Origin: an uncultured Alphaproteobacteria bacterium
GTDB taxonomy: Bacteria > Pseudomonadota > Alphaproteobacteria > Rhodospirillales > Rhodospirillaceae
Length of the DNA stretch: 36,150 nt
Reading direction: 5' to 3'
Assembly (NCBI GenBank): GCA_902575965.1
Contig: CACGTM010000012.1
Location: 1-36,150 of the forward strand
Made by a program: the position numbers and the translations under genes. Below the pieces are notes generated by a model. It ran no database searches, had not been told where the DNA came from, and saw only the letters and a program-made list of their open reading frames with translations. Shown in pieces: positions 5,522 through 29,021 of the stretch; position 1 is the first letter of the stretch; the number at the start of each line of letters is the position of its first letter.

Positions 5522-6211
5522 ATGATTAAAGCATTCATAGGATATGATAGCAGAGAGACTGTTGCCTTTCATGTTCTTTCACACAGCATACATAGCAGAG
5601 CCACCACACCTGTTGAGATTGCGCCATTAATGTTATCTCAATTGTCTAAAATTTTTTCCAGAGAAAAACACCCTCTGCAGTCAACAGACTTTTCATTTTC
5701 TAGGTTTTTGGTCCCTTACTTGTCAAACTATTCTGGCTGGTCAATGTTTTGCGATTGTGACATGCTAATGATAGATGATATTTCTAACCTTTGGTCACAA
5801 AGAAACGAAAAGTTTGCTGTGCAAGTTGTAAAGCACGATCACAAGCCAACTGAAGACAGTAAATTTCTTGATCAGCCTCAGAGTAAATATGAAAAGAAAA
5901 ATTGGTCGAGTGTTATTTTATTCAATAACTCCAAGTGTAAAGCCCTGACTAAGGAGTACGTAAATAATGCGTCGGGCCTAGAACTGCATCAATTTAAGTG
6001 GCTTGAGAATGATAGTCTCATCGGCGAACTTCCGCCAAGATGGAATCATCTTGTAGACTATGATCTCACCTTACCAAAAGAAGAACTTTCATTGCTTCAT
6101 TTTACTAAAGGGGGACCATATTTTAGTGATTACAAAAATTGCAGTTACTCAGATCTTTGGTTCGAAGAACATGATAAAATGATATATGCTGGTAGCGATC
6201 ACATTAGCTAA
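5522..6211 (+). CDS. GT-A fold glycosyltransferase with DxD motif
   Basis: This 229-residue protein has no TPR and no membrane segment. It begins with a beta-strand, MIKAFIGYDSRE, typical of small GT8-like nucleotide-sugar transferases. It carries the metal/nucleotide-sugar motif D78-C-D80 in MFCDCDMLMIDD, and later an HFTKGGPYF segment like the C-terminal metal-binding His region of such enzymes. The likely reaction is transfer of a sugar from a UDP- or GDP-sugar to an acceptor, in the cytoplasm. ATG 5522 follows a purine-rich GAGAGAAAA. It lies 46 bp after one TPR-GT gene and 20 bp before the next, so it is probably in the same operon. It may supply or extend a glycan used by the neighbours. 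The fold assignment is good; the substrate is unknown. Confidence 0.8.
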   Translation: MIKAFIGYDSRETVAFHVLSHSIHSRATTPVEIAPLMLSQLSKIFSREKHPLQSTDFSFSRFLVPYLSNYSGWSMFCDCDMLMIDDISNLWSQRNEKFAVQVVKHDHKPTEDSKFLDQPQSKYEKKNWSSVILFNNSKCKALTKEYVNNASGLELHQFKWLENDSLIGELPPRWNHLVDYDLTLPKEELSLLHFTKGGPYFSDYKNCSYSDLWFEEHDKMIYAGSDHIS

Positions 6212-6231
6212 ATCCATCAAAGTAAAATCTT

Positions 6232-7905
6232 ATGCGCGGAAACACCGTAAATAATTCTAATAAAGATGTCTATTTAAAGGCAGCTATTGAAGCTCATCAA
6301 AAGGGTAACCTTCAAGTAGCAAAGGAAATATATAGGGCAATACTTAGCCAAGACCCAAAGAATAGTGAGTCAATTTTTAGACTTGGCACAATGGCACTTC
6401 AACTAAATCAATATGAAAAAGCAGCTGAATATATTGGCAAAGCGATAAAAATAGGCCCCCCAAGAATTTCTATGTATATTAACCAAGGAGCTGCATTAAA
6501 GCATTTAGATCAACATGAACGGGCCATAAAAGCATATAACAAAGCATTAAAAATAGATAAACATTCAGTTGATGCTCTTTTTAACAAAGGTTGTGTATTA
6601 CAAGCGCAAAATAAATTTGATAAAGCAAAAGACCTATACCTAAAAGCTCTTTCCATAAATAGTGATGATGCTGAAATATGGATAAATTTAGGGTCAGTCG
6701 AAAAAGAGCTAGGTGATAATAAAAGGGCTATTTACTCATTTGAAAAAGCAGGAGAATTAAACCCTAAGCTTGGCGCTGTATATAGCAATATTGGAGCAAT
6801 CTTGTTTGAGGAGGGCTTAGAAAAAACAGGATTAAAACTCGTTGAAAAAGCAATAGAACTTGAACCAAAAAATTCAAAATATCTTTACGACATGAGCACA
6901 TTTTGGCTTGCTCGAGGTGACCTTGAAAGAGGATGGAAAGATTATGAAAAAAGATTTCTACATAGCAAAATATCTAAAGGACGCCGTCCTCCAGCACCAC
7001 CCCCCTACTGGGAGGGTCAAGATCTTACTGAACTTAAAGATAAGAATATTCTTTTCTGGACAGAGCAAGGACTTGGGGAAGAACTCATAAGTTCTAGTGT
7101 AATCCCAAAGCTAATAAAAAAAGGACTCAAATTTTCAATTGAGTGTACATCAAAACTAGTTCCTATTTTGTCTAAGACTTATCCTCATATAAATTTTTAT
7201 TCATGGGAAGAACATGAGGAATTAATTAGAAACAAAAAGGATGAAATTGATTATCAATACCCCTTATTGAGTACCTTAAAATTTTTCTTTAAACAACATG
7301 AGCAAATTAATTACGGCAGGACATTAATAAAACCAGATATAAAAAAAACAAATCTTTTAAGAAAAAAGTACAAAGAACTTGCTCAGGGAAGAAGAATCAT
7401 AGGCATTTCATGGAAAAGTACCAGTATGACTTTTGGGACTGATAAAACCATCCCTCTAAAAGAGTGGGATAGTATCATTAACAAAAAAGATATTTTTTGT
7501 GTAAATTTACAATATGGAGAATGCCAGAAGGAAATAAATAGTTTCAATAATAAATTCGGATCAGATATATATTTTGACAATAGCATAAAACCTCTTGAAG
7601 AACTTGAGACAGCCTTTGCCCAAATAGCAGCAATGGATTTAGTTATATCAATTTCTAACAGTAATATCCATTTTGCAGGATCAATGGGTATTCCAACATT
7701 TTCGATAATACCCCGGTCAAAAGGGTTAATATGGTACTGGTTTACAAAAGGGACACACAGCCCCTGGTATCCTTCTGTCCGTCTTTTTAGGGAGACATCT
7801 CCCCCTGATACCGGAACACCTTGGTGGCCAACGGTTATTGATAATGTTGATAAAGAGCTATCTGTCTGGCTCAAGAAACCTCTTGAACCACGAATAGATT
7901 CCTAA
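6232..7905 (+). CDS. TPR-GT-B glycosyltransferase-like protein; 3' end lies in the 815-bp repeat
   Basis: The 557-residue protein has about six TPRs (residues about 12-235) and then a GT-B domain from about 270. The GT domain shows ILFWTEQGLGEE, IGISWKSTS, LQYGE, ISNSNIHFAGSMG and WYWF. Its last 57 codons, from the WYWF motif to the stop, are identical in DNA to the end of the next gene, because both lie in copies of the perfect direct repeat. The TAA stop shares its last A with the ATG of the following gene (TAATG), the usual sign of translational coupling. The conserved loop reads SNSNIH rather than SNTTAH. The start at ATG 6232 has no clear Shine-Dalgarno sequence but places the first TPR right after it. 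The acceptor is unknown. Confidence 0.87.
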   Translation: MRGNTVNNSNKDVYLKAAIEAHQKGNLQVAKEIYRAILSQDPKNSESIFRLGTMALQLNQYEKAAEYIGKAIKIGPPRISMYINQGAALKHLDQHERAIKAYNKALKIDKHSVDALFNKGCVLQAQNKFDKAKDLYLKALSINSDDAEIWINLGSVEKELGDNKRAIYSFEKAGELNPKLGAVYSNIGAILFEEGLEKTGLKLVEKAIELEPKNSKYLYDMSTFWLARGDLERGWKDYEKRFLHSKISKGRRPPAPPPYWEGQDLTELKDKNILFWTEQGLGEELISSSVIPKLIKKGLKFSIECTSKLVPILSKTYPHINFYSWEEHEELIRNKKDEIDYQYPLLSTLKFFFKQHEQINYGRTLIKPDIKKTNLLRKKYKELAQGRRIIGISWKSTSMTFGTDKTIPLKEWDSIINKKDIFCVNLQYGECQKEINSFNNKFGSDIYFDNSIKPLEELETAFAQIAAMDLVISISNSNIHFAGSMGIPTFSIIPRSKGLIWYWFTKGTHSPWYPSVRLFRETSPPDTGTPWWPTVIDNVDKELSVWLKKPLEPRIDS

Positions 7906-8546
7906 TGTCAACGCAGCAAGAAATAATTTCCCTTTTAGATCAAGCGGTTAAAATGCATCAAGCAAACCGACTTAAGGAAGCTGAAAATCTATATAAAAAA
8001 GTTCTCACCTTGTCCCCTCGACAATATGACGCACTTAACCTCTTAGGTGTCTTAGCCCATCAGAGTGGAAACAATGATCAAGCAATAGACTTATTTGATC
8101 AGGCCATTGCTGCATCACCAAACCTTGCCTCAGCTCACTTTAATAAAGGAAATGTCCTCTATGGTAATAAACAACTGGAAGAATCGGTAAGTTGCTACAA
8201 AACTGCCCTTACCTACGATCCACAATCGCAAGATGCTCTTCTCAATCTTGGTGTGATACTTCAGGAACAAGAAAAAACAGGAGAAGCTCTGAGTATATTT
8301 TTAAAATTAATAAAGATTGCGCCTAATAACCCTAAGGCGCATTACAACAAAGGAAAGTGCCTACATGCGACAGGCAACCTTAAGGATGCTGAAAAATCCC
8401 TTAAGGACGCTCTGAAACTAGACCCAGAAAATGCAGACTGCTGCTTTGCCCTAGCAACAGTGAAGGAAGAGCTTCATCAAAATGAGGAAGCAATTAAATA
8501 CATTCAAAAAGCAATTAAAATTAAACCCGACTGGGCACAAGCGTAT
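7732..8546 (+). repeat. 815-bp perfect direct repeat, copy 1
   Basis: This copy starts at TGGTACTGG in the WYWF codons of the upstream TPR-GT and ends at the codons for the DWAQAY segment of the downstream TPR-GT. It matches 9768-10582 at a constant offset of 2036 bp, with no difference found on reading both copies. The flanking bases differ at both ends (A versus T before it, C versus T after it). It spans the last 174 bp of one gene, the TAATG junction and the first 642 bp of the next. Confidence 0.96.
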
Positions 8547-9941
8547 CTTATTCAAATAAGAATTCTAAAAAAAACAGACTCCAATGAACAAGCCTTAGTT
8601 ACTGCTAACAATGCTGTTAAAAATTCTAACAGGTCCCCCCTGTCCTTAATTTGCCTAGCTTGGGCTCAGGGTAATAATTTTGACCATTTAATTGAAGAAA
8701 TTCATAATAATAATCAGCTAGACCATAATGAACTAATAGCTCTATCCAACATAGCCAGAGATACTATTGGCTCTTGGCCAGCCATAAGACTTTTGAATCA
8801 ATCAATCAGTATTCGGGAAACAGAGGTTGCATTAAATAATCTTGGAGCCAATTTTGATGATCTAAGTTTATTTTCTAGTGCACGTGTTTGCTATGAATTA
8901 GCGGTGAGACTTAATAGAGACTATTTAAAAACGCTAAAGTCTTATGGTTGTGCACTATTAAGAAATACTCAGCTAGAAGAAGGCTGGGATATTCTTTCAG
9001 AAAGAATATATAACAAGAATTTCTCCGGCCTTAGACCTGGAAATACCCCAATCTGGAAAGGAGAAGACATCTCAAAGAAAACACTCTATGTGTTTTTTGA
9101 GGAAGGTCTGGGAGAACATATACTCCAAGCAAGCATGATTGGCTCTATAATTCCATCTGCAAAAAAATGCATAGTAGAATGCGCAAGAAGACTCGTTCCA
9201 ATTATTAAAAGGTCATACCCAAATGCTCAGGTTATATCCGGAACTGAAAAAAAAGATGTCCTTGATGCCCTAAAAGAAGCTGACTATCAAATACCAGGAA
9301 TTAATTTAGGTAGCCACACGCGAAGAGACTTAAAGAGCTTCCCTCAAAAACAATCTGGTTTTCTATCCGCAAACAAAGAAATATCAGATAAATTCAGGAA
9401 TAAATATAAGGCAATGGCAAATGGCAAACGTATCATTGGAGTAAATTGGATAAGTGGAAGCTCTAACCATGGAAAGTACAAATCAATAGACCTTAATGAA
9501 TTATTACCTATTATTGAAAAACAAGACGTTTTTCCAGTAAGTCTTCAATATGGACCTGTGTCTGAAGAATTAAAAAAATTTGCAATTAAGACAGGACATG
9601 AAATTTACTTTGACGATAGCTTTGATCAAATCAAAGATTTAGAGCAATTCTTCGGACAAATTAATGCAATGGATCTTGTTGTTTCAATATCTGGTACAAC
9701 TGTTCATGCCGCTGGCTCACTTGGTGTCCCAACCTGGATGATGATCCCCAGTGGTCGCGGGGCACTTTGGTACTGGTTTACAAAAGGGACACACAGCCCC
9801 TGGTATCCTTCTGTCCGTCTTTTTAGGGAGACATCTCCCCCTGATACCGGAACACCTTGGTGGCCAACGGTTATTGATAATGTTGATAAAGAGCTATCTG
9901 TCTGGCTCAAGAAACCTCTTGAACCACGAATAGATTCCTAA
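7905..9941 (+). CDS. TPR-GT-B glycosyltransferase-like protein with long TPR array; bounded by repeat copies at both ends
   Basis: The 678-residue protein has an N-terminal TPR array whose first 214 residues are identical to those of the next gene. A less regular helical TPR-like region follows (about 215-375), then a GT-B domain from about 390. The first GT motif is degenerate: VFFEEGLGEH instead of VWTEQGLGDE. The second is IGVNWISGSS, followed by LQYG, SISGTTVHAAGSLG and WYWF. Its C-terminus is identical to that of the gene before it. Both ends are therefore shared and only the middle (8547-9767) is private, which suggests a mosaic made by recombination. Start and stop are both in TAATG overlaps. 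The degenerate first motif may mean changed donor binding or weak activity. Confidence 0.87.
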   Translation: MSTQQEIISLLDQAVKMHQANRLKEAENLYKKVLTLSPRQYDALNLLGVLAHQSGNNDQAIDLFDQAIAASPNLASAHFNKGNVLYGNKQLEESVSCYKTALTYDPQSQDALLNLGVILQEQEKTGEALSIFLKLIKIAPNNPKAHYNKGKCLHATGNLKDAEKSLKDALKLDPENADCCFALATVKEELHQNEEAIKYIQKAIKIKPDWAQAYLIQIRILKKTDSNEQALVTANNAVKNSNRSPLSLICLAWAQGNNFDHLIEEIHNNNQLDHNELIALSNIARDTIGSWPAIRLLNQSISIRETEVALNNLGANFDDLSLFSSARVCYELAVRLNRDYLKTLKSYGCALLRNTQLEEGWDILSERIYNKNFSGLRPGNTPIWKGEDISKKTLYVFFEEGLGEHILQASMIGSIIPSAKKCIVECARRLVPIIKRSYPNAQVISGTEKKDVLDALKEADYQIPGINLGSHTRRDLKSFPQKQSGFLSANKEISDKFRNKYKAMANGKRIIGVNWISGSSNHGKYKSIDLNELLPIIEKQDVFPVSLQYGPVSEELKKFAIKTGHEIYFDDSFDQIKDLEQFFGQINAMDLVVSISGTTVHAAGSLGVPTWMMIPSGRGALWYWFTKGTHSPWYPSVRLFRETSPPDTGTPWWPTVIDNVDKELSVWLKKPLEPRIDS

Positions 9942-10582
9942 TGTCAACGCAGCAAGAAATAATTTCCCTTTTAGATCAAGCGGTTAAAATGCATCAAGCA
10001 AACCGACTTAAGGAAGCTGAAAATCTATATAAAAAAGTTCTCACCTTGTCCCCTCGACAATATGACGCACTTAACCTCTTAGGTGTCTTAGCCCATCAGA
10101 GTGGAAACAATGATCAAGCAATAGACTTATTTGATCAGGCCATTGCTGCATCACCAAACCTTGCCTCAGCTCACTTTAATAAAGGAAATGTCCTCTATGG
10201 TAATAAACAACTGGAAGAATCGGTAAGTTGCTACAAAACTGCCCTTACCTACGATCCACAATCGCAAGATGCTCTTCTCAATCTTGGTGTGATACTTCAG
10301 GAACAAGAAAAAACAGGAGAAGCTCTGAGTATATTTTTAAAATTAATAAAGATTGCGCCTAATAACCCTAAGGCGCATTACAACAAAGGAAAGTGCCTAC
10401 ATGCGACAGGCAACCTTAAGGATGCTGAAAAATCCCTTAAGGACGCTCTGAAACTAGACCCAGAAAATGCAGACTGCTGCTTTGCCCTAGCAACAGTGAA
10501 GGAAGAGCTTCATCAAAATGAGGAAGCAATTAAATACATTCAAAAAGCAATTAAAATTAAACCCGACTGGGCACAAGCGTAT
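9768..10582 (+). repeat. 815-bp perfect direct repeat, copy 2
   Basis: Second copy of 7732-8546, at a 2036-bp offset. It covers the last 174 bp of the 7905 gene, the TAATG junction and the first 642 bp of the 9941 gene. Perfect identity, including third codon positions, across a gene junction indicates a very recent duplication, active gene conversion or an assembly join. Confidence 0.96.
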
Positions 10583-11668
10583 TCAAATTTGGGGAATTTC
10601 CAAAAAAATAAAGGGGACCTTGAACAAGCGCTCTTAAGCTATAAAAAATGCCTTAAAATAAACCCAAAAAATTATACAAATCAGACAAACCTTGGAATTC
10701 TGCAACTTTATATGGGTAAATTTCAGGAAGGTTGGACAAATTACGGCTACAGATCTAAATCAGAAGCCCCTTTTTATATTAAACATAATTTTAATTTACC
10801 CCATTGGAAAGGAGAAGACCTATCTAATGAGAATATTCTCCTATGGAACGAACAAGGCCTTGGAGATGAAATTATCTTTTGCTCGATGCTAAAAGAATTA
10901 TCCTTTAAGGCTAAAGAAATAACACTGTTGTGCTCCCAAAAATTAAAAAGTGTCTTTGAGTATTCCTTTTCAGACCTTAAAAACCTAAAAATAATAGAGA
11001 ATCGAGACTTTAATATTCAACCGAATAATTTTAATAGGGCTATTTCTCTAACTGACCTTGGCAAATTTTTGCGCCCATCATTTAACAATTTTCCTCCCCC
11101 ACAAGCCTATCTGAAATTTGATGAAATAAGACAAGGAAATCTCAGAACAAAATTAAAAAATGAGCATGGGGAAAATATAAAATTCATAGGGATATCATGG
11201 GCAAGCAATAATCCAATTATTGGAAAAGAAAAATCCATACCTCTTGAAAACTGGTTACCCCTTCTTGAGCTTCCAGACATTAAATTTGTAAATCTTCAAT
11301 ATGGGCGTGCGTTAAGTGAACTAAATACTTTACCGGAGAGAATCCGCAAAAAAATCGTCACATTAAAAGAAATTGACCTTAATGGAGGTCTGAACAAACC
11401 CTTAGAACTCCTGTCAGCCTTGGACTTACTTATAACAAGCAGTAATACCACTGCACATTTGGCGGGCGCTGCGGGGCTACCTGTTTGGATTCTTACTCCT
11501 AGAGGCAGGTCACTCATGTGGTATTGGTTTTCCAGTGGAAGTAGGAGTCCTTGGTACAAAAATGCTATGATTTATAGGCTAAAAGCGGGTGACAAATGGA
11601 AAGATTTAATGAGTGAAATAAGTAAAATGGTAACTAAATTGGACCTAAATGATGGATTTTCACTATAA
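9941..11668 (+). CDS. TPR-GT-B glycosyltransferase-like protein; 5' end lies in the 815-bp repeat
   Basis: The 575-residue protein has seven or so TPRs (residues about 8-265); the first 214 residues are identical to the preceding protein. After residue 214 the sequence diverges into another TPR (SNLGNFQKNKGDLEQALLSY) and a GT-B domain from about 296. That domain shows ILLWNEQGLGDEI, IGISWASNN, LQYGR, SSNTTAHLAGAAG and WYWF, all close to family consensus, so it is probably active. It begins in a TAATG overlap and is the last gene of the first TPR-GT run. No convincing terminator was seen directly after it; a hairpin with a T-run at 11803-11830 could end its transcript. Confidence 0.88.
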   Translation: MSTQQEIISLLDQAVKMHQANRLKEAENLYKKVLTLSPRQYDALNLLGVLAHQSGNNDQAIDLFDQAIAASPNLASAHFNKGNVLYGNKQLEESVSCYKTALTYDPQSQDALLNLGVILQEQEKTGEALSIFLKLIKIAPNNPKAHYNKGKCLHATGNLKDAEKSLKDALKLDPENADCCFALATVKEELHQNEEAIKYIQKAIKIKPDWAQAYSNLGNFQKNKGDLEQALLSYKKCLKINPKNYTNQTNLGILQLYMGKFQEGWTNYGYRSKSEAPFYIKHNFNLPHWKGEDLSNENILLWNEQGLGDEIIFCSMLKELSFKAKEITLLCSQKLKSVFEYSFSDLKNLKIIENRDFNIQPNNFNRAISLTDLGKFLRPSFNNFPPPQAYLKFDEIRQGNLRTKLKNEHGENIKFIGISWASNNPIIGKEKSIPLENWLPLLELPDIKFVNLQYGRALSELNTLPERIRKKIVTLKEIDLNGGLNKPLELLSALDLLITSSNTTAHLAGAAGLPVWILTPRGRSLMWYWFSSGSRSPWYKNAMIYRLKAGDKWKDLMSEISKMVTKLDLNDGFSL

Positions 11669-13515: not shown

Positions 13516-14724
13516 ATGCCATCTTTTAAATTTGAAGCGATTGACGAAACTGGAAGAACTGTATCCGGACAAATTAACTCAGATACAGATAAAAGTGCTC
13601 TCAGAACTTTAATATCTCGAGGTCTTTCCCCTTTAAATATTCAATTAAATGATGAAAAGAAAAATAACAAAAACTGGGCACTTGGCAGCATCCCTAAAAC
13701 ACAAGATTATATCTTATCTTTAAAGCAATTGTCCCTTCTAATTAGCTCAGGCGTTCCTCTTATTACAGCGGTTGAAACACTCAAAACTCAAAGTACTCAT
13801 AATAAGCTTCAAGAAGCCTTTAGTTTTGTTGCAAGAGATCTAAGGTCAGGACAAACATTTTCTGAATCATTAAAGAATTCTATCCCCGAATATCCACCTT
13901 ATGTTTACCAACTAAGCCTTGCCGGAGAATCTATCGGTGAATTAGGTAATTCTCTTAATGATGCAGCAAAACAAATGGAATATGAATATAAAATTAAACA
14001 AGAAATTAAGAATGCTCTAACTTATCCATCCATTTTAGTTTTAGCTGGGATTAGCGCTGTAGTATTTATTTTCATTGTTGTTGTTCCAAGGTTTTCAGCG
14101 ATGTTAAATAATCAAGATCAGCAGCTTCCTTACATATCCAAACTTGTACTCTCTACTGGCATGTTTCTTAGCGAAAACACTTTTCTGGTTTTTCTTTTAA
14201 CTATTATGTTGGCTCTAAGTATTTTTTGGATGTCAAAGAATAGGAAAATTAAAGACAGAATTAATGAGACCCTGATCAGGCTTCCAATACTGGGCAGTTG
14301 GATTATTGAAAGTGAGCTATCCAAATGGTCTTCTATGATGGGTACAATGATAAAACATGGCGTAGATCTAATTCAAGCGCTTAAGTTTGCCGAAAGCTCA
14401 GTATCAATAAAGTCTATGAAAATGAATATAAGTCAAATCAGCAAACTTGTAAGAAGTGGAAATAGTCTTTCTCATGCAATGAATGAACTAAATATTTTCT
14501 CAAATACAGCTCTAAGCCTTGTTAAAGTTGGTGAAGAATCAGGAGAATTACCACAGATGCTTAAATCTCTATCTAACCTTTATGAAGATTCAGGACGACA
14601 AAGGATGAAAAAGTTTCTTTTAATACTTGAACCTGCAGCTATAATTTTGATTGGATTAGTGATTGGCGGTATTGTGACTGCTATTATGTTGGCAATTACA
14701 AGTATTAACCAAATTAACCTTTAG
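13516..14724 (+). CDS. gspF: Type II secretion inner-membrane platform protein GspF
   Basis: The 402-residue protein has the normal GspF length. It begins PSFKFEAIDETGRTVSGQI, typical of the family, and contains two T2SSF domains: about residues 70-195 (LLISSGVPLITAVETL, YPPYVYQLSLAGESIGELG) and about 275-400 (MIKHGVDLIQALKFAESS, LSLVKVGEESGELP). Three membrane segments lie near 170-195, 222-242 and 373-395. GspF is the polytopic base of the T2SS assembly platform and works with the ATPase GspE and with GspL/M. It is the first gene of the gsp operon here, after a candidate promoter. GspE, which often lies just before gspF, is missing from this position. Confidence 0.95.
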   Translation: MPSFKFEAIDETGRTVSGQINSDTDKSALRTLISRGLSPLNIQLNDEKKNNKNWALGSIPKTQDYILSLKQLSLLISSGVPLITAVETLKTQSTHNKLQEAFSFVARDLRSGQTFSESLKNSIPEYPPYVYQLSLAGESIGELGNSLNDAAKQMEYEYKIKQEIKNALTYPSILVLAGISAVVFIFIVVVPRFSAMLNNQDQQLPYISKLVLSTGMFLSENTFLVFLLTIMLALSIFWMSKNRKIKDRINETLIRLPILGSWIIESELSKWSSMMGTMIKHGVDLIQALKFAESSVSIKSMKMNISQISKLVRSGNSLSHAMNELNIFSNTALSLVKVGEESGELPQMLKSLSNLYEDSGRQRMKKFLLILEPAAIILIGLVIGGIVTAIMLAITSINQINL

Positions 14725-14733
14725 GTAAGGATT

Positions 14734-15207
14734 ATGAAAATAAAAAAAACTCTTATGAATTTTTTTCAAGATAAATCAAGAAAGAACAAAGGTTTTACTC
14801 TTTTAGAAATGTTGGTTGTTTTAGTCATAATAGGATTAGTTGCAAGTCTTGTAGGACCACAACTTCTTGGGAGAGTTGATAGTTCCAAAGTGACTGCAGC
14901 TGAAGCTCAAATAAGGATGATTAAAGGAGCTCTTGATACATTAAGGCTTGATATAGGAAGATATCCCAGCAAGGAAGAAGGATTGTCGCTTCTTACATCT
15001 CCCCCCGCTGACTCAAGATTAAATCGATACTGGCAAGGACCTTATTTATCCGAGGATTTACCCCTAGATCCCTGGAAAAATCAATACCAGTATCAGGGAA
15101 GTAAATCAAATAGAGTAATTCTATTTAGCTATGGGGCAGATGGTAAGATTGGTGGTGAAGGAATAGATGCTGATATTGGATTTAAAGGATCATTATCGCA
15201 AAATTAA
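14734..15207 (+). CDS. gspG: Major pseudopilin GspG
   Basis: The 157-residue prepilin has a basic leader of about 20 residues ending KNKG, cleaved before FTLLEMLVVLVIIGLVA, with the key Glu at mature position 5. The mature part shows the GspG hallmarks IKGALDTLRLDIGRYPS, EEGL, a YLSEDLPLDPW segment and a C-terminal FSYGADGKIGGEG region (calcium-binding loop of GspG). It forms the shaft of the periplasmic pseudopilus after processing by the prepilin peptidase, which is not in this window. TAAGGA lies just upstream of ATG 14734, nine bases after gspF. Its end overlaps gspH by 41 bp. Confidence 0.96.
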   Translation: MKIKKTLMNFFQDKSRKNKGFTLLEMLVVLVIIGLVASLVGPQLLGRVDSSKVTAAEAQIRMIKGALDTLRLDIGRYPSKEEGLSLLTSPPADSRLNRYWQGPYLSEDLPLDPWKNQYQYQGSKSNRVILFSYGADGKIGGEGIDADIGFKGSLSQN

Positions 15208-15637
15208 TAATGTGAATGCAAAAGGTTTCACATTACTAGAAATGCTAACAGTTCTTTTCATAATTGGATTAGCTGCATCATTGGCCCTGCCAAATTTATC
15301 CCTGATCTTTGATAGGATAAAATTTTCTAATGAACAGAAAAATGTTTATAGGAGCATTAACCTTCTCTCCTACAAAGCGCTCTCTGAAAATAGGGACTTT
15401 GTGCTATTGAACAATACAGAAAAAAATTTAAGTAACCATAAGCTTGGACCCTATAATACAGCAAGGCTCTCAAAAATATCAGTTGAACTCCCTAAAGGGT
15501 GGATAATAAATGTTGACGAACCAATATTCTATAAGTCATCGGGTTTTTGTTCTGGTGGTAAGATTTCACTATCTGTTGGAGAGTATAGCTATCCATTAAA
15601 ACTAATTCCTCCATTTTGCCAAATAAATTATGATTAA
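15167..15637 (+). CDS. gspH: Minor pseudopilin GspH
   Basis: The 156-residue protein has a 20-residue leader ending NAKG before FTLLEMLTVLFIIGLAAS, with Glu at mature position 5. The C-terminal part is short and beta-rich, fitting GspH more than GspG. The start at ATG 15167 is preceded by GAAGGA four bases upstream and overlaps gspG by 41 bp. A GTG at 15212 would leave only a four-residue leader and no ribosome site, so I prefer 15167. Position between G and I supports H. It would sit near the pseudopilus tip with I, J and K. Confidence 0.88.
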   Translation: MLILDLKDHYRKINNVNAKGFTLLEMLTVLFIIGLAASLALPNLSLIFDRIKFSNEQKNVYRSINLLSYKALSENRDFVLLNNTEKNLSNHKLGPYNTARLSKISVELPKGWIINVDEPIFYKSSGFCSGGKISLSVGEYSYPLKLIPPFCQINYD

Positions 15638-16076
15638 TTTACCAATGAAAATGAATAAGGGATTTACTTTAATTGAGGCATTAATTGCTATTGCTATTCT
15701 CGGAGCAGCCTTACTGCCTATAATGGCATTAATGAGTCAAAGTATAAATCAGATACATAAGATTGCAGAATCTAACGCCAAATCTTCTGCACAAGACTCT
15801 GCGTTAGCAATAATAGAACCCATTAACCCTATGGAAAACCCGTCGGGAGAGGTAGAACTGGTTGGCTTTAATATGGTTTGGTCGAGCGAGCAAATTGTGC
15901 CTCCAAATAATACAGTTCAAATTGGAGCTGGACTGGCAGGGTACAAAGTGGCGTTTTACATTGTTAATATCGAAATTCTAAAAAATAGCGAACCCTGGTT
16001 TTCCTTTCAGGTAAGAAAAGTAGGGCATCGGCGTATCCAAAACTCAATTAACCCTTTTAGCGATACGGTGAGATAA
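15630..16076 (+). CDS. gspI: Minor pseudopilin GspI
   Basis: The 148-residue prepilin has the leader MINLPMKMNKG before FTLIEALIAIAILGAALLPI, with Glu at mature position 5. The FTLIEALIAIAILG pattern and a C-terminal segment ending in QVRKVGHRR suit GspI. It forms the tip complex with GspJ and GspK. The start overlaps gspH by eight bases; ATG 15645 and 15651 are in-frame alternatives that leave shorter leaders. The stop shares its last A with the ATG of gspJ. Confidence 0.88.
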   Translation: MINLPMKMNKGFTLIEALIAIAILGAALLPIMALMSQSINQIHKIAESNAKSSAQDSALAIIEPINPMENPSGEVELVGFNMVWSSEQIVPPNNTVQIGAGLAGYKVAFYIVNIEILKNSEPWFSFQVRKVGHRRIQNSINPFSDTVR

Positions 16077-16693
16077 TGGGAAGTAAAAATGTTAAAAAGA
16101 TAGGAGGTTTCACTCTTCTCGAAGTTATAGTAACTCTTGTCATTGCAAGTATGATTTCAGTGATACTAATGCAATCTCTTTCAACAATGCTTAATATGCG
16201 TCATAAATTTGGTAAAGAACTAATTAATTTAGAAAAAATTGGGATACAAAAAAGTGTCATCACAACCCCCATATCGGGGATATTTCCAGACTATAATGAT
16301 GGAGATGATCGGTTTAAGGGAAGCTTAAGCAGTATCAGAGGTTTAACTCTCTACCCTCTTCAAGGAATTACAGGTGCACCAACAGCGTTTGGAATTGATA
16401 TTATTTATGATTCATCTTCCAATCAGTCAGCTTTATTATACAAAGAACGTGGATTTGAATCTTTGGAAATTGCACGTTGGAACGGAAACGAGGGGTCATT
16501 TGAATACTTAGATATGAATGGAGTATGGTCAAAAAGATGGCCTATAGGAAATAATCCAAACACTCAAGTACCACGCTCGGTAAAATTTACTTCAGGTTTG
16601 ATTGAGTCATCATATATAATTCGCGTGACAACTACGTCAGATCGACCTGGAAGGCTACAAGACTCACCATTTAGGGTTAATAATCCAAGATGA
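16076..16693 (+). CDS. gspJ: Minor pseudopilin GspJ
   Basis: The 205-residue prepilin has a leader ending KKIGG before FTLLEVIVTLVIASMISVIL, with Glu at mature position 5. Its length and large beta-rich C-terminal part (LLYKERGFESLEIARWNG, FEYLDMNGVWSKRWP) match the GspJ family, including the W-x-x-x-WP feature. It begins in a TAATG overlap with gspI and ends in an ATGA overlap with the following TPR-GT gene, so the TPR-GT is translationally coupled to the pseudopilin genes. Confidence 0.9.
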   Translation: MGSKNVKKIGGFTLLEVIVTLVIASMISVILMQSLSTMLNMRHKFGKELINLEKIGIQKSVITTPISGIFPDYNDGDDRFKGSLSSIRGLTLYPLQGITGAPTAFGIDIIYDSSSNQSALLYKERGFESLEIARWNGNEGSFEYLDMNGVWSKRWPIGNNPNTQVPRSVKFTSGLIESSYIIRVTTTSDRPGRLQDSPFRVNNPR

Positions 16694-18141
16694 AAAATAA
16701 TAAAAAATTATACAAGCAACAAACTCAAAATGCTAAGTACCATTTTGACCAGGGTGTAATTCATCTTCGGGACTCTAACTTTATAGAAGCCGAAAATGAA
16801 TTTAAAAAAGGGATCTCTGCAGATCCTCTGTCTTTAGCATTAATAATAAACCTTGGAATTTCATTAGCAAAACAAAATAAAACTTTGCAAGCAGAAAAGG
16901 TTTATAAAAGGGCACTTAAATTAAAACCAAATTCTTTGGAAGCCTTGATTAACTTGGGTGATCTATACAAGTACTCTAAACCAAAGGTTGCAAGACATTA
17001 TTTGGATATGGCCCTCAATTTACAACCTGATAATAAGAATGCTTTAGATATATGTGGTTTTACTTGGTTTATGGAACAGAAATATGACCAAGCATTAAAA
17101 TATTACGAGGCAGCAATTCGGCTAGATTCTGATTTTAAAAGAGCATTATTTCATAAAACTGCAATATTTTTTTTAACTGGGAAGTTTGACATTGCTTGGG
17201 AAAATTATATTACAAGATACGGTGCCACAGGTAATATAGGCAGTCCCATTGGAGATAAACTACCTTTTTTTAAAGGAGAATTGAATTATTCATCAAAACT
17301 TCTAATTTGGACAGATCAAGGATTGGGGGATGAGATCCTTCAGTTAGGGATTATAAAAGAATTCATAGAAAAATTCCCTTTTGAGGTTTCAATCATTACA
17401 AATGTCCGACTTAAAGAAATTGTTGAAAGATCTTTGCCACAAGTTAACTTTTTCTCATTAACTAAAAGTGAAAATAATAAATATTCAATATCAGACTTCT
17501 CTTATCAAGCCCCCGCAATGAGCTTAGCAGTTCATATAAAAAGAGATTTAAATGAAAAATATAAAAATGATAAATATCTTGTCCCTTGCGAAAATAAAAC
17601 TAGAGAATTAAGAAAAAAATACTTAAAAATTAGCGAAAATAAACCGCTTGTTGGTATATCTTGGAGAAGCTATCACCCTGAGTTTGGAGAAAATAAATCT
17701 ATTAAATTAAGATTTTTTATGAATAAAATCATTGATTTAGACTGTCTTTTCGTAAATTTGCAATATGGTGATTATGAGTCAGAATTAAATAGTTTACCCT
17801 CGAAGTTTCAATCAAAATTATTCACTGATTTAACAATAAATCCAAAAGGTAAAATAGATAATTTTGCGAGTCAAATTAATGCTCTTGACTTCATTATTAC
17901 AACCAGTAATTCAACTGCTCACCTTTCTGGTGCAATTGGGAAAGAAACTATAACTTTAGTTCCAAAAGTTGGCCCCGGCTGGCTCTGGTATTGGTTTGAA
18001 GAGAGGTCATCAACGCCCTGGTACCCAAAGCTTAAAGTTCTAAGACAAGGTCAAAACAATAGCTGGAAAAATGCATTAAATAAATCAAGAATTGAACTGT
18101 CTAATTTCTTGAATAAAAGGGCTATGGTTACAAGTAATTAA
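16690..18141 (+). CDS. TPR-GT-B glycosyltransferase-like protein embedded in the gsp operon
   Basis: The 483-residue protein has a TPR array (about residues 14-165) and a GT-B domain from about 202. The GT domain shows LLIWTDQGLGDEIL, VGISWRSYHP, LQYGD, TSNSTAHLSGAIG and LWYWF. This is the same architecture as the genes at 1-11668, but with a shorter TPR array and SNSTAH in the key loop. ATG 16690 overlaps the gspJ stop by four bases, while the following gspK begins 55 bp after its stop. The other core gsp genes overlap or are separated by 16 bp or less. Its position suggests a job on a pseudopilin or on T2SS cargo before export, but this is inference from context. Confidence 0.9.
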   Translation: MKNNKKLYKQQTQNAKYHFDQGVIHLRDSNFIEAENEFKKGISADPLSLALIINLGISLAKQNKTLQAEKVYKRALKLKPNSLEALINLGDLYKYSKPKVARHYLDMALNLQPDNKNALDICGFTWFMEQKYDQALKYYEAAIRLDSDFKRALFHKTAIFFLTGKFDIAWENYITRYGATGNIGSPIGDKLPFFKGELNYSSKLLIWTDQGLGDEILQLGIIKEFIEKFPFEVSIITNVRLKEIVERSLPQVNFFSLTKSENNKYSISDFSYQAPAMSLAVHIKRDLNEKYKNDKYLVPCENKTRELRKKYLKISENKPLVGISWRSYHPEFGENKSIKLRFFMNKIIDLDCLFVNLQYGDYESELNSLPSKFQSKLFTDLTINPKGKIDNFASQINALDFIITTSNSTAHLSGAIGKETITLVPKVGPGWLWYWFEERSSTPWYPKLKVLRQGQNNSWKNALNKSRIELSNFLNKRAMVTSN

Positions 18142-18196
18142 TTAGATTTTTAGCGGCAATTTATTATCATATGACAAATTATGTGAGTCTAAGCTT

Positions 18197-19267
18197 ATGC
18201 ATTTATCAGATAAAAACATGAGAGGCTTTGTCCTGCCATTAACCCTATGGATAATCGCCGCAATGGGTTTAATATCAGCTATGATGTCTGAATGGGTATC
18301 TGAAGCAACGAATAATGCATTGATCATTAAAGAAAAATCCGAAGCAAATTTAATTTTTTCTAATATTAGAAATGAGTTAGCATTCATTTTTGCACGTCGG
18401 CCCTATACATTCAGAGGATTACAAGTAGGCAACTTTATAAATAAACCAAAAGGGGATTCGTTCAATGATATTTTGAATGCGGATTTCACATCTGATCAAA
18501 TGATTAAGCTTGATGGTACAAATTATATTATGTCAAGTGATAGACAATATGTAGTAAGAATTCATGATGGGAAGGGGTTAGTTAATCTAAATACTGTTAA
18601 TCTAAAATACCTAAAAAATATGTTTAGTGTATTAGAGATACCTGAGACGAGTCACAATGCACTTGCAGATGCTCTTTTAGATTATAGGGACGAAGATGAT
18701 TTCCGAAGACTATCTGGAGCAGAAGAAAATACATATATAGACCTAGGTCTTTACCCTCCCTCAAATAGCTTTCTGGTTACCCCCCTTGAAGCTCAACGTA
18801 TTTTAGGTTGGACAAATTTAAAAAAACTTTGGGATAAACACTTTGAAAAACCAATAATAACAACATGTAAATCATCAGGATTTAATCCAAATACAGCCTC
18901 AAAAGAAGCTTTATCAACATTTATTGACGGGATCTCATACGATAATTCAGATATTCTAGTATCATTAAGAAAAAAAATTCCATTTAGAAATATTAGAGAT
19001 GTTGGAGACTCAATTGGACTAATATTAAATGAGCAACCGTTTTTTTTCAGCTTTCTACCTGGAAGATGCTTTATTATAGATCTTATCAAACTTGAAACAG
19101 GAGAACACACTCGTTTTTCATTAACCCTTTTACCAAGGAATACGAGCCAACCATGGCAGATAGATTATGTTTATAAAATACCTAATGAAACTAAAAAACC
19201 ACTTTTATCCGTTAATACAGAAGAAACTTTTCCCAGCCCCGAAGATATATATCGAAGGGGAGGATAA
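18197..19267 (+). CDS. gspK: Minor pseudopilin GspK
   Basis: The 356-residue protein starts with MRG-FVLPLTLWIIAAMGLISAM near its N-terminus, a prepilin-like sequence without Glu at position 5, as is normal for GspK. The large alpha-helical domain shows GLVNLNTVN, ALLDYRDEDD, and later NPNTASKEALSTFIDG followed by a helix-hairpin-helix-like IPFRNIRDVGD, all typical of GspK/GspK-like proteins. It caps the pseudopilus tip with I and J. ATG 18197 gives a 10-residue leader; ATG 18218 is an alternative with almost no leader. Its 3' end overlaps gspL by about 100 bp in another frame. Confidence 0.9.
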   Translation: MHLSDKNMRGFVLPLTLWIIAAMGLISAMMSEWVSEATNNALIIKEKSEANLIFSNIRNELAFIFARRPYTFRGLQVGNFINKPKGDSFNDILNADFTSDQMIKLDGTNYIMSSDRQYVVRIHDGKGLVNLNTVNLKYLKNMFSVLEIPETSHNALADALLDYRDEDDFRRLSGAEENTYIDLGLYPPSNSFLVTPLEAQRILGWTNLKKLWDKHFEKPIITTCKSSGFNPNTASKEALSTFIDGISYDNSDILVSLRKKIPFRNIRDVGDSIGLILNEQPFFFSFLPGRCFIIDLIKLETGEHTRFSLTLLPRNTSQPWQIDYVYKIPNETKKPLLSVNTEETFPSPEDIYRRGG

Positions 19268-20279
19268 TGTTTCCGTTATTCCTGGGGCTGAAGAAAATAT
19301 AATTTGGGTCCCTAATCGGAAACAACTAAAACATACCTGTATTTCCTTGCCTGATACCCTAAAGGGTAAAAAGAGAGAGTCTGCACTACGTCTAAAAATA
19401 ATGGCCTGGTCCCCCTTCAAAGAAACAAAATACTGCACACAATGGAAGGGGAATACAGCAAGTGTTTTTTTATGGGATGCAAATCTCGTTGGAAAAATGA
19501 TAAAAGAAAATAATATAAACCCTAACGCTTGCGAAATAATTCCAGAAGTATTTATGAGAGAACCTATCGTTACAGGTATAAGATTAGTAGATACTACCTT
19601 TGGTAAAGAGGGACAAATATGGGACGATGGGTTACTAAAAGTCTCGCGTTGGTGGAAAGAGCAACCTAATCAATTAGAGTGGGACTTATTTGTAAGAAAT
19701 GCTGGCTCTATCTTAGAGCAGAGTAATTCTGGTGTACCCCAAAAAAGCAATCCTGATTGGCTTAAGGTTCCTTGGTTAAGAGAAGGTTTAGGAATAGAAA
19801 ATCTAAAATATTTTTTAAAAAATAGAACTATCATTATATCTTTGGCAACGATATTAACGATTCCATTAATTTTTTTAATGACGCAATTTATAACATATAA
19901 AATTATGACGGTTAACATTCAAAGTGAATTATCACTGATTAGAGAAGATACTCAAAATATTAGAGGCCAAAGAAGGAATGCAATAAGAAATCTATCCTCG
20001 ATAGAAAAATTGATATCGTTGAATAATCACCCTCAACAAATTGAAATCTTATCAAGTATTCATAGTCAAATAAGCCCACTTAATTTGTCTTTAGTAACAT
20101 GGGATTACTCTCCTGGAAAACTTGAGTTTAGTTTCGAAACTAATGATAATATTAATTCAATTTCCCTAATAAAAGATCTTGAAAAGAATTATCTCTTTTC
20201 TAATGTCAGCACCAGTACCAGAGGTAGTAGACAAATCTTCAAGATGAATATTAATACGAAAGAGGAGATCCAAAAATGA
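19167..20279 (+). CDS. gspL: Inner-membrane assembly protein GspL
   Basis: The 370-residue protein has a cytoplasmic actin-like/PilM-type N-terminal part (about residues 25-215; RESALRLKIMAWSPF), a membrane segment near 224-247, and a periplasmic ferredoxin-like part. This is the layout of GspL, which binds GspE in the cytoplasm and GspM in the membrane. The cytoplasmic domain is shorter than in enterobacterial GspL. ATG 19167 gives a 101-bp overlap with gspK (83 bp if ATG 19185 is used); no start after the gspK stop would keep the N-terminal domain. Identification relies on topology and on position between gspK and gspM. Confidence 0.82.
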   Translation: MFIKYLMKLKNHFYPLIQKKLFPAPKIYIEGEDNVSVIPGAEENIIWVPNRKQLKHTCISLPDTLKGKKRESALRLKIMAWSPFKETKYCTQWKGNTASVFLWDANLVGKMIKENNINPNACEIIPEVFMREPIVTGIRLVDTTFGKEGQIWDDGLLKVSRWWKEQPNQLEWDLFVRNAGSILEQSNSGVPQKSNPDWLKVPWLREGLGIENLKYFLKNRTIIISLATILTIPLIFLMTQFITYKIMTVNIQSELSLIREDTQNIRGQRRNAIRNLSSIEKLISLNNHPQQIEILSSIHSQISPLNLSLVTWDYSPGKLEFSFETNDNINSISLIKDLEKNYLFSNVSTSTRGSRQIFKMNINTKEEIQK

Positions 20280-20914
20280 ATTTTTTAGCTGATCCTATTT
20301 CGGAAATAAAAACACTTTATAATTCTAAAAAAGCTGATTTTTCGAATGAATTAAGAAATAATCAAAGACTACAATTAATGTCACTTAGTGGGTTTATAAT
20401 ACTTTATTTACTAATTTTATCTTCACTATTTAATATTACAAATCAAACAATTAAGGACCTACAAGATATAATCTCCGAAAGTTCTCAACTAAAATCTCAA
20501 ATAGGAAAACAAAATTGGTCAGAAAGAGAAGAAGAATCCAAAAAAATTCTTGGTCAATTAAAAAGCGGTCTATGGGCTGGAGAAACTCCAGGGCTTGCTG
20601 AGGCTGATTTTGAGGCATGGATAAGAAAAAACTTGAAGAATAATGGAGTAGATGTAAGACGAGTGCAATTAACAAGAGCACCAGTAGATAATGATCTGAT
20701 GCTCTCAGAAGAAGAAAGAGTTAGAGGAATTCAACGTATTAGAGCAAAGGTAATTACGCCATTAAAGGAGAGTGGTTTAGTTAAATTTCTAAACATAGCG
20801 TCACAAAATGACTCATGGGTTGTTGTTGAGAAATTAATAATCAGAGCTGGTAGGAATGATAGGATAGAAATGGAGCTTTCTGCATTTTATTTACCAAAGG
20901 AAGGTATTTTATGA
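20276..20914 (+). CDS. gspM: Inner-membrane assembly protein GspM-like
   Basis: The 212-residue protein has a short cytoplasmic part, one membrane segment (about 36-56), a coiled-coil region (about 58-95) and a small ferredoxin-like periplasmic domain (VDVRRVQLTRAP ... VVEKLIIRAG). This is the layout of GspM, partner of GspL. AGAGGAG lies eight bases before ATG 20276, and the gene overlaps gspL by four bases. Sequence similarity of GspM proteins is always low, so position and topology carry the call. Confidence 0.78.
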   Translation: MNFLADPISEIKTLYNSKKADFSNELRNNQRLQLMSLSGFIILYLLILSSLFNITNQTIKDLQDIISESSQLKSQIGKQNWSEREEESKKILGQLKSGLWAGETPGLAEADFEAWIRKNLKNNGVDVRRVQLTRAPVDNDLMLSEEERVRGIQRIRAKVITPLKESGLVKFLNIASQNDSWVVVEKLIIRAGRNDRIEMELSAFYLPKEGIL

Positions 20915-21420
20915 AAATATCAACCCAAGAAAATTATCTGAACACTATTAAGAAGTTAAGTAAATATAGAATCAATATCTTTATTATTTTCCTCTCAATA
21001 ATTTTAGCCATTCTAATATCCTTTTTTGGAGCCAATTCTTCATTATATAAAGAAATTAGTAATCAAGATTGGTCACTTCCTGTCTCGCCTGAAATAAAAC
21101 TAATGTCTGAACTCAATTCTATTCTTGCATCACCTTTATTTGGTGGTAAACCTGAAATAATTGAAACAATTGAAGAGATTAGTGGAAATGAAATAAATAA
21201 TGGAAAATGGAAAATTATTGGAATAATTGAAGATGGGGAAGAAAAATTTGCATTAATAAATGATTTCTCAGACAATAAGGTTAAACCTGTCTCAGTTGGA
21301 GATACTTTTCCAAATGGTGAAGTATTATTAGAAATATCAAAAAATAGTATCTCAGTAAAAAATATAAAAGAAGTTCGAACTATCTCCCTTTTTAATAAAA
21401 AAATTACAGAAGGAAAATAA
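20911..21420 (+). CDS. gspC: GspC-like inner-membrane protein with HR domain, no PDZ
   Basis: The 169-residue protein has a cytoplasmic tail, a membrane segment (about 22-42) and a periplasmic domain. That domain contains SPLFGG and then WKIIGIIEDGEEKFALI, VKPVSVGDTFPNGEVLLEI and ISVKN, the pattern of the GspC homology region that contacts the secretin N0 domain. The usual C-terminal PDZ or coiled-coil domain of GspC is absent. AAGGAAGG precedes ATG 20911, which overlaps gspM by four bases. The gene lies just before gspD, as gspC often does. GspN-like or PilP-like alternatives are possible. Confidence 0.75.
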   Translation: MKISTQENYLNTIKKLSKYRINIFIIFLSIILAILISFFGANSSLYKEISNQDWSLPVSPEIKLMSELNSILASPLFGGKPEIIETIEEISGNEINNGKWKIIGIIEDGEEKFALINDFSDNKVKPVSVGDTFPNGEVLLEISKNSISVKNIKEVRTISLFNKKITEGK

Positions 21421-21423
21421 GTG

Positions 21424-23463
21424 ATGGGAAAAAAACAATTACTATCTCTTATAAATCAATTTAAAAGTTACACCAAAGTACTTTTATTAATATTGCCTCT
21501 AGTGAGTTGTGCAGGAATGCCAAGAACACCTATTACAGAACCGTTATTAATTAAAAAAGAAATTAATGAAGGACAAGAGGGTCAAATCTTAGGAGTAAAC
21601 AGAGGAAGAAATCAAATTTCTTCCTCACCTGGCATAAGAACACCAAGCGGTCGGAGTTTAGGGGAACCCATAACGAGCACTAAAGCTCCACCATTAACCG
21701 GAGAAAGTATTAGTATAAATTTTGAAGGAGTTAGACTTCCGGCATTCATTAATACAGTATTTGGAGAGCTTCTTGAAGTCACCTTTGAAATTGATAGTCA
21801 GGTACTTCAAAAGGAACAGTTAGTTACACTAAGGACATCTGATGCGTTAAAACCAGATAACTTCTATCAATTAGTCACCCAAGTACTAGCAAATTATGGA
21901 GTTCGTGTAGTTTATGAAAATAATGTTTATAGGGTTATTCAGAACACCCAAGCTCAAAGTGAAATACCAAGAATAGTTAGATCTAGAGCATTTAGCACCG
22001 TTCCAGGTGACATGAGACCCGTATTTCTGTATGTTAAAATTGACAATGTGCGTGTGAAATCAATGCAGATATGGCTTGAGCAAGCACTAAAGGGAAGATT
22101 AAGGATTAATGGAGTTCCTTACACAAATGCTCTGATGCTCTTAGGAACAGCTGAGGATATTGCAGCAGCCACTGAAGTTATTGAAATACTTGACCAACCA
22201 AATTTTGCTGGAAACAGGAGTTTAAAAATATCACCAGCATTTTGGACTGCGGAAAAACTTACTCAGCAGTTAATAATTGTTCTTAAGGCAGAGGGTTTCG
22301 CTGTTGACTCTAATACTGAGAGTGATGCGCCAATAAAACTCATACCTGTTCAAGCACTTAATCAGATTATTGTATTTGCTTCTAAAGAAGAAAATTTACA
22401 ACATGTAATGGATTGGGCTTCCGAATTAGATAGGCCGGGACAAACCATAAACGCAACAGGAGTTTACTATCACCCAATTGAAAATACTAATGCTGAGGAT
22501 ATTGCTTCAATCATCGGACAGCTTCTAGGAGAAAGCAGTGAACAAAGTCAAGAGGCAAGCTCAGGTGACAATGACCAAACTAGTAAGGTGATAGTTGATA
22601 CTGGAAGGAATGCAATAATTTTTCAAGGAACAGCTGAGGAATATGCTCAATTTCGCTCCCTTGCAGAACAAATGGATCGAGCACCTTATGAAGTACTTAT
22701 CGAAGCAACAGTTGCAGAAGTTACTTTGGATAAAGGAGAATCTCTTGGTGTCTTATTAAATTTTGATGAAACTGGTATTTCAACGGCAAATCAAATCTCA
22801 GTAAGCTCAGATGGAGGTATACTAGCAAACCTGATACAAGACAGGGGTGATTTTACAGCAGCACTAAATGCAGCTGCAGATAAAAGCAAAGTTTCTATTC
22901 TCTCAAGCCCAAGATTAGTAGCAGCAAGCGGTAAATCTGCATCAATGCAAGTTGGCACTCAGGTTCCTATAATTACTACACAACAAACTGCACCTGATGG
23001 CTCAACACTAGGTACCAGTAATATACTTCAGCAAGTACAATATAGATCTACTGGAATAGTCCTAAACATTGAACCAATTGTAAATTCAAGTAGACGAGTT
23101 GAGTTAACGGTGAGGCAAGAGGTAAGTGATGCTCAAAATAATGATACGTATAACATACAAAGCCCCATAATCTTGACAAGAGGTATAGAAACAACATTAT
23201 CTGTAGATGATGGAGAAACAATCCTACTTGCAGGACTGATCTCAGAGAACTTTAGTGAGGGAGATAATGGAATACCTTTCCTCAAAGACGTTCCATTGAT
23301 AGGTAATGCCTTTAAAACACAATCAAGAGCACTTCAAAAGACCGAATTAATAGTATTACTAACGCCATATATTATTGATAGCCAAAGTACTGCCAGAGAG
23401 ATACGTGATGCTTTCCGGTCAAAACTAAATAATTTGTCAGAATCCTTCGAAAAAATTGAATAA
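21424..23463 (+). CDS. gspD: Type II secretion outer-membrane secretin GspD
   Basis: ATG 21424 (with AGGAAA eight bases upstream) gives 679 residues; a GTG at 21421 is an alternative. A signal sequence ends in LPLVSC, a lipobox with Cys29, so the secretin is probably a lipoprotein. The N0 domain starts at ISINFEGVRLPAFINTVFGE, followed by N1-N3 (VYYHPIENTNAEDIASIIGQ is a typical N3 start) and the secretin core: ILSSPRLVAASGKSASMQVG, VPIITTQQ, GIVLNIEPIV, LTRGIETTLSVDDGETILLAGL, and VPLIGNAF with ELIVLLTPYII. It forms the outer-membrane channel of the T2SS. The C-terminal S-domain is very short, which fits self-targeting by the lipid anchor. Confidence 0.95.
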   Translation: MGKKQLLSLINQFKSYTKVLLLILPLVSCAGMPRTPITEPLLIKKEINEGQEGQILGVNRGRNQISSSPGIRTPSGRSLGEPITSTKAPPLTGESISINFEGVRLPAFINTVFGELLEVTFEIDSQVLQKEQLVTLRTSDALKPDNFYQLVTQVLANYGVRVVYENNVYRVIQNTQAQSEIPRIVRSRAFSTVPGDMRPVFLYVKIDNVRVKSMQIWLEQALKGRLRINGVPYTNALMLLGTAEDIAAATEVIEILDQPNFAGNRSLKISPAFWTAEKLTQQLIIVLKAEGFAVDSNTESDAPIKLIPVQALNQIIVFASKEENLQHVMDWASELDRPGQTINATGVYYHPIENTNAEDIASIIGQLLGESSEQSQEASSGDNDQTSKVIVDTGRNAIIFQGTAEEYAQFRSLAEQMDRAPYEVLIEATVAEVTLDKGESLGVLLNFDETGISTANQISVSSDGGILANLIQDRGDFTAALNAAADKSKVSILSSPRLVAASGKSASMQVGTQVPIITTQQTAPDGSTLGTSNILQQVQYRSTGIVLNIEPIVNSSRRVELTVRQEVSDAQNNDTYNIQSPIILTRGIETTLSVDDGETILLAGLISENFSEGDNGIPFLKDVPLIGNAFKTQSRALQKTELIVLLTPYIIDSQSTAREIRDAFRSKLNNLSESFEKIE

Positions 23464-28924: not shown

Positions 28925-28927
28925 CAA
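28899..28927 (+). promoter_or_regulatory. Possible metZ promoter inside the end of the upstream gene
   Basis: TTGACG (28899-28904) is followed after 17 bp by TAACAA (28922-28927). Transcription would begin near 28934, right before the SAM-II aptamer at 28937. The -10 is weak, but the position suits the riboswitch leader. Confidence 0.4.
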
Positions 28928-28936
28928 AATATTGAA

Positions 28937-28987: not shown

Positions 28988-29021
28988 AATCAAACCTCAC
29001 CCTAGCGGATGAGGTTTTTTT
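28976..29021 (+). terminator. Riboswitch expression platform: intrinsic terminator with competing antiterminator
   Basis: Terminator: AAACCTCA (28992-28999) pairs with TGAGGTTT (29010-29017), and the T-run extends to 29021. Antiterminator: CGCTA (28976-28980) pairs with TAGCG (29003-29007), and GGTGA (28984-28988) with TCACC (28997-29001). The antiterminator uses the aptamer's GCTAAA strand, so ligand binding should free the terminator and stop transcription before metZ. Confidence 0.85.

Follow-up and report, generated by a model that had tools for sequence, protein, structure and literature searches.

A putative glycosyltransferase gene flanked by near-identical junction repeats and repeatedly missing from uncultured marine Rhodospirillaceae

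In Salmonella Typhimurium, the gene wzy lies between 113-bp perfect direct repeats and undergoes a reversible 2558-bp deletion, with formation of a circle and reversion in co-culture (PMC12074656). In Helicobacter pylori, the tandem glycosyltransferase (GT) loci jhp0562/jhp0563 and HP1105 occur as one- and two-gene alleles, and intragenomic recombination has been proposed to change the glycan repertoire (PMC6892558, PMC1599737). More generally, tandem paralogues that undergo concerted evolution, through gene conversion or unequal crossing-over, are more alike within than between genomes.

The locus described here, an array of genes for TPR proteins with a predicted GT domain (TPR–GT), resembles each of these systems in part. 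As at wzy, a candidate surface-glycan gene stands between perfect direct repeats, its clean loss leaves a single repeat, and one- and two-repeat alleles are found among relatives. The wzy repeats are short and intergenic and their reversion has been demonstrated, whereas those of the array, known from genome comparison, are 815 bp long, span gene junctions within coding sequence and show homogenisation across genera. With the H. pylori loci it has in common adjacent paralogous glycosyltransferases and alleles that differ by one gene. Within the single species H. pylori, alleles occur in many combinations and some GTs are hybrid or frameshifted; here, by contrast, the limits are fixed, recombination yields intact genes and the arrangement recurs between genera of uncultured bacteria. 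Paralogues are more alike within than between genomes in this array too, but only at their junction-spanning ends, and the catalytic core between those ends stays distinct and orthologous. We found no open-access literature on this TPR–GT array or its repeats; the arrangement is new and the processes are known.

Identical repeats across two gene junctions

The window, that is, the whole stretch of DNA that was analysed (36,150 nucleotides), is one whole contig (G000:C12) of a 65-contig, 1.37-Mb genome assembly that is 58% complete. The features to which the text refers are as follows.

6232–7905, forward strand: gene 1, TPR–GT, 557 amino acids
7732–8546, forward strand: repeat copy R1, identical to R2, with the limits seen in genomes G096 and G024 at the residue level; last 57 codons of gene 1 (end of the GT-B domain, from WYWF), TAATG junction and codons 1–214 of gene 2, which encode about six TPRs
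7905–9941, forward strand: gene 2, TPR–GT, 678 amino acids; removable by recombination between the repeat copies and absent from MED667
8547–9767, forward strand: private segment M, open throughout (P0001); encodes the remaining TPR region of gene 2 and the greater part of its GT-B catalytic domain
9768–10582, forward strand: repeat copy R2, from the last 57 codons of gene 2 across the junction to codon 214 of gene 3
9941–11668, forward strand: gene 3, TPR–GT, 575 amino acids
11693–13315, forward strand: putative secreted surface protein, probable start at 11894 (MKKQVLNYG...); a conserved neighbour in the family
13516–23463, forward strand: type II secretion genes gspF, G, H, I, J, K, L, M, C and D
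16690–18141: a further TPR–GT gene inside the type II secretion block

Direct alignment of 7732–8546 with 9768–10582 gave zero mismatches over 815 bp at an offset of 2036, and the match could not be extended by a single base on the left or on the right. This bears out the initial annotation, which had claimed an 815-bp identity at that offset across two gene junctions, each copy holding the end of one gene, the TAATG and the TPR start of the next; these parts come to 57 and 214 codons. Such an exact match is far beyond chance. Self-comparison of the window revealed no second repeat of comparable length and identity in 36 kb, the next repeat family being a 64-nt motif at 61–75%, and in a search of the source genome the repeat (R) occurred at these two places only. 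If the contig comes from a short-read assembly, both copies may be one graph edge printed twice, which makes 100% identity an upper bound that assembly may have inflated.

To the left of R, genes 1 and 2 can still be aligned (48–62% in 100-bp bins over 7301–7700); to the right, identity drops to background immediately. The segment 8547–9767 had been taken for the only private part of the middle gene, and at the DNA level it is indeed unique, but the 3′ portion of the segment is paralogous to gene 1 and has diverged from it.

In relatives, too, the gene for the putative secreted surface protein follows gene 3 or gene 2 and precedes gspF, and its product had no Pfam or NCBIfam match in profile searches. 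From this conserved adjacency and the presence of type II secretion genes, it is a reasonable candidate for the acceptor of the glycosyltransferases. The gspD product matches TIGR02517, under the curated cut-off of that model; the names of the other gsp genes are presumptive, given from sequence and gene order. A site-specific recombination cassette (integron, invertase or phage att) was considered and rejected: the repeats are long coding sequence, and no recombinase-like ORF was recognised by eye among the translated neighbours at the locus. Elsewhere in the window, argF (ornithine carbamoyltransferase, 32949–33891) is split by a frameshift near a T run at about 33520–33542, probably through a sequence error or as a recent pseudogene, and an ordinary SAM_alpha riboswitch (28927–29001, 39.3 bits) lies just upstream of a metZ-like sulfhydrylase gene.

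Predicted enzymes of the array

Among the matches listed in Pfam searches with genes 1–3 there were TPRs only and no glycosyltransferase at E<0.01. In the AlphaFold (AF2) model of gene 2 (pLDDT 84.7), a TPR array is followed by a GT-B domain, and the GT domain modelled alone reached a pLDDT of 87.5. The top five Foldseek matches of the latter model were all GT9 enzymes, with TM scores of 0.46–0.58; the best matches include 3tov, 1psw, WaaC and TibC, and the nearest solved structures are a Veillonella GT9, WaaF, WaaC and TibC. Because the nearest fold is GT9 and Pfam gives no match, the domain is better described as GT9-like in fold than as a filed member of that family. The GT9 heptosyltransferases WaaC, WaaF and TibC thus appear to be its closest structural counterparts, from which the array enzymes differ in falling below Pfam detection and in being fused to a long TPR array. 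A GT41 (OGT/SPINDLY) catalytic domain was rejected: the similarity of the full-length gene 2 model to OGT and SPY lies mainly in the TPRs, and the GT domain alone ranks GT9 first and a bacterial OGT only 49th. In the models, R would encode about six N-terminal TPRs of one enzyme together with the C-terminal strand and helix of the GT-B domain of the preceding one.

A sister species without gene 2

The only same-genus genome found was the Rhodospirillaceae MAG MED667 (NZGX01000086, L010), treated here as one with G001. Its locus is syntenic with the window at 84–86% DNA identity, with a single difference, one missing 2036-bp unit: the alignment reaches window position 8573, 27 bp beyond R1, and restarts at 9768. 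Gene 1 (557 amino acids) is joined directly to gene 3 (575 amino acids) through a single R, both genes are intact, and the sole ambiguous base of the contig lies far from R. The predicted deletion of 2036 bp that leaves intact genes therefore exists as an exact allele, and one-unit alleles are also present in G092 and G094. The accompanying idea that such a deletion would swap the GT domain behind an unchanged TPR array was overstated, as the product is genes 1 and 3 unchanged with gene 2 missing.

Divergence between the two species is uneven along the locus. Four-fold-site divergence is 32–51% in most neighbouring genes (B, C, D, gspF, gspG, gspH and gspJ), 14–23% in R and much of gene 3, and 3% in residues 1–500 of gene 1; correspondingly, DNA identity is 95–99% in the gene 1 region (window 6101–7800) and 80–85% in the upstream neighbours. 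With silent divergence this low in gene 1 relative to its neighbours, the locus seems to have been exchanged between species, which, judged from sequence, suggests a recent exchange between the window species and MED667. Chimerism of the contig in the MED667 MAG is a live alternative for the low divergence of gene 1. In the apparent source project of the MED-numbered MAGs, contigs were merged with Minimus2 (overlap 100, 95% identity; PMC5769542), and there is some chance that a merging artefact lies behind the one-unit contig; if G092 and G094 come from other pipelines, their one-unit alleles are independent of such merging.

Two further observations concern this comparison. A GT-domain stretch of gene 3 (window 11137–11437) is 68–84% identical to MED667 between flanks at 88–95%, a diverged or replaced catalytic segment. 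In MED667, the same 2.1 kb, including a TPR–GT gene, occurs at 99.95% on two contig ends (L032, G001:C85, 1–2138; L033, G001:C10, 1362–3499), as either a real duplication or redundant contigs.

Age and losses of gene 2

In searches with P0001, the private part of gene 2, the best matches came from G096, G024 and G002 (40–42%, E about 1e-92 to 1e-98), and no equally strong match was found outside the family in 199 sampled genomes of the wider order (E <= 1e-55); no viral-contig relatives were found. The order gene 1–gene 2–gene 3–secreted protein–gspF recurs in other genera of the family, and the three-gene order reaches further genera at weaker similarity. In a tree of GT cores, sequences group by gene, with support of 100/98 for the gene 2 clade, 100/100 for gene 3 and 95/91 for gene 1. 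With orthologues of its core at the corresponding array position in other genera, gene 2 is an old gene that MED667 has lost, and its presence at this position is the ancestral state of the family.

The initial annotation had offered a very recent duplication as one explanation. A very recent tandem duplication of a TPR–GT gene, with subsequent replacement of the middle part, would account for the 100% identity of the copies; for the gene it is refuted by the core orthologues at the same position in other genera and by their separate clade, and the same repeat limits recur in another genus with 11% divergence between the copies. We therefore consider this reading highly improbable. Gene 2 is not recent; the identity of the two junctions is.

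Contiguous sequence running from gene 1 through R into gene 3, without gene 2, was found in G001, G092 and G094. In a comparison with one genome per species, the presence or absence of gene 2 changed at least three times on the tree of the neighbouring genes, at G000/G001, at G096/G094 and at G092 beside the G024–G095 pair. Because gene 2 is present in G002 and in outgroup genera, the three changes are read as losses. The single repeat of G094 is 82% and 83% identical to the two copies of G096, in a patchy pattern that gives no significant crossover footprint (runs test, p = 0.12).

Concerted evolution of the junctions

The ends of the genes behave differently from their cores. In a tree of N-terminal segments, sequences group by genome: the gene 2 and gene 3 segments of the window are identical and lie beside the gene 3 segment of MED667 (100/100), on a branch of 1.08 changes per site, and those of G096 each lie only 0.07–0.08 from their common fork. 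An AU test on this segment against monophyly of gene 2 was borderline (p = 0.066). Within genomes, the C-terminal ends of genes 1 and 2 are 100% identical in the window, 95% in G096 and 38% in G002; the N-terminal ends of genes 2 and 3 are 92%, 82% and 36% identical, respectively, figures that take in residues beyond R. Between the window, G002 and G096, the same ends are about 37–56% identical. R itself is 89–100% identical within a genome and, at the protein level, about 50% or less between genera; against G002 it reaches 42% and 43% at the N termini of genes 2 and 3, and 47% and 37% at the C termini of genes 2 and 1. In G002, gene 2 is present with junctions at 36–38%, so homogenisation is not universal. 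Ends that cluster by genome and cores that cluster by gene mark concerted evolution of these paralogues.

Could selection on the protein keep the ends identical, for example as a common docking TPR and C-terminal helix, without recombination? R does look like a coherent structural part in the models, with its six or so TPRs and the GT-B strand and helix. Among 111 four-fold sites of R (those of the MED667 comparison), however, none differs between the window copies. Zero silent differences, set against 32–51% in the neighbouring genes, are not explicable by protein-level selection. In the C-terminal part of G096, where the copies have drifted, there are 14 silent and 4 replacement changes: silent sites drift under such selection, which cannot keep them identical. 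Protein-level selection as the sole cause is ruled out on these grounds, and we find the reading as a whole scarcely credible, while such selection may be the reason for the position of the repeat limits.

Repeat limits and contig breaks in other genomes

The limits of R recur in a second genus. G096 contains an 817-bp repeat pair, 88.9% identical, with sharp edges at the residues found in the window; at its left edge, identity falls from 98% to less than 30% within 50 bp. Both repeats are bounded by W[YF]WF in the upstream gene of each pair and by KPxWAQAY in the downstream one. In G024, 119 bp are 100% identical up to the contig end. In four genomes, three of the second genus (G095, G093 and G024) and one of a third (G005), contigs end on both sides of R, inside its limits by 139/142 bp (G095), 138/145 bp (G093), 162/144 bp (G005) and 50/121 bp (G024). 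Short-read assemblers stop at long identical repeats, and these breaks fit that behaviour; as indirect evidence, they would extend the repeat arrangement to the third genus. Identical breaks would be expected, however, if strains that have gene 2 were mixed with strains that lack it. Since a unit of about 1.2 kb between two breaks could miss binning length limits, the lack of M in G005, G093 and G095 does not establish that it was lost.

The same assembly behaviour raises the question of an artefact, in which the second copy or its perfect identity was made by the assembler, from an unrolled graph loop or from a one-unit chromosome accompanied by a circular or minority R–M form. The contig comes from an incomplete 65-contig assembly, a perfect repeat of 815 bp is not normally resolved by short reads, contigs of related genomes end at this point, and the homopolymer frameshift in argF shows that small errors are possible on this contig. 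Against these points, the reading frame carries on from M into R on either side, the family ancestrally has gene 2 at this position, and G096 has the same architecture with copies that differ by 11% and so were separately assembled. An artefact is accordingly very unlikely.

Other junction-spanning repeats in the family have different limits: G082 (86% over 1.4 kb), G034 (73% over 1.07 kb), G063 (70%) and G025 (67%). The G082 repeat (L057, G082:C143, 4007–5401 and 6084–7478) runs up to the contig end and is probably a separate homogenisation in another genus. In G018 (L079, G018:C254), a 125-bp perfect repeat at the contig start (1–125 and 1622–1746) covers the C-terminal end of two adjacent TPR–GT genes and stops just past the stop codon. 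Repeats with other limits suggest that the same process recurs in the family.

Discussion

These observations make it probable that gene 2 is an old gene lying between homogenised, recombining junction repeats, in a TPR–GT-B array beside type II secretion genes. Each 815-bp copy would then mark a junction in an old row of three genes, 1, 2 and 3, and the two junctions would have been made alike by conversion, by unequal crossing-over or by loss of the unit and its regain from other strains, and kept near-identical within a genome while diverging between genera. Recombination between the copies would also remove exactly gene 2 and spare its two neighbours, and selection would keep the catalytic cores distinct; a single glycosyltransferase would, as the outcome, be polymorphic for presence and absence. 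The losses presumably arose by homologous recombination between R copies, which would be frequent, and the result is presumably a changed glycan on the surface protein or on another product handled with the type II system. The locus looks like a real, recurrent and long-lived recombination hot spot, not a fresh duplication.

Both features of the wzy system that can be read from genomes are found here: long, near-identical direct repeats flank a complete gene unit (815 bp at 100%; 817 bp at 88.9% in G096), and relatives carry exactly one repeat and no unit (MED667, G092 and G094). By analogy with the reversible deletion in Salmonella (PMC12074656), the locus might be a selected population-level switch, in which cells excise an R–M cassette, perhaps in circular form, and reacquire it from others by homologous recombination at R, varying a surface glycan, for example against phage. 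Repeat limits kept in at least two genera, repeated clean loss, and the 3% silent divergence of gene 1 beside R, compared with 32–51% in its neighbours, are consistent with such a switch; yet no regain is among the three changes, all read as losses, and neutral recombination with purifying selection on M predicts the same pattern. We regard a selected switch as unlikely. The initial annotation had likewise proposed a shuffling device; a dedicated device is possible, but nothing beyond homologous recombination and selection is indicated. An extension of this idea is that R–M is an exchangeable cassette, with R providing homology arms of fixed limits and populations carrying alternative M cores and an empty site, which is doubtful and, to us, quite unlikely. 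It is equally doubtful that cells gain, lose and swap whole GT genes at R, as a glycan-diversity system over several genera. Were the cassette reading true, the M segments missing from G005, G093 and G095 would be alternative cassettes, or cassettes in several copies, that assemblers working from short reads fail to place.

On the reading that we favour, that of an old gene between homogenised junctions, a glycosyltransferase gene has been lost repeatedly and cleanly between junction repeats, the limits of which hold to the residue from one genus of uncultured marine bacteria to another. Long-read metagenomes could thus be used to test both concerted evolution and switching of gene content. 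In MAGs assembled from short reads, variable surface-glycan genes of just this kind tend to coincide with contig breaks or to be missing, and their diversity may be under-counted.
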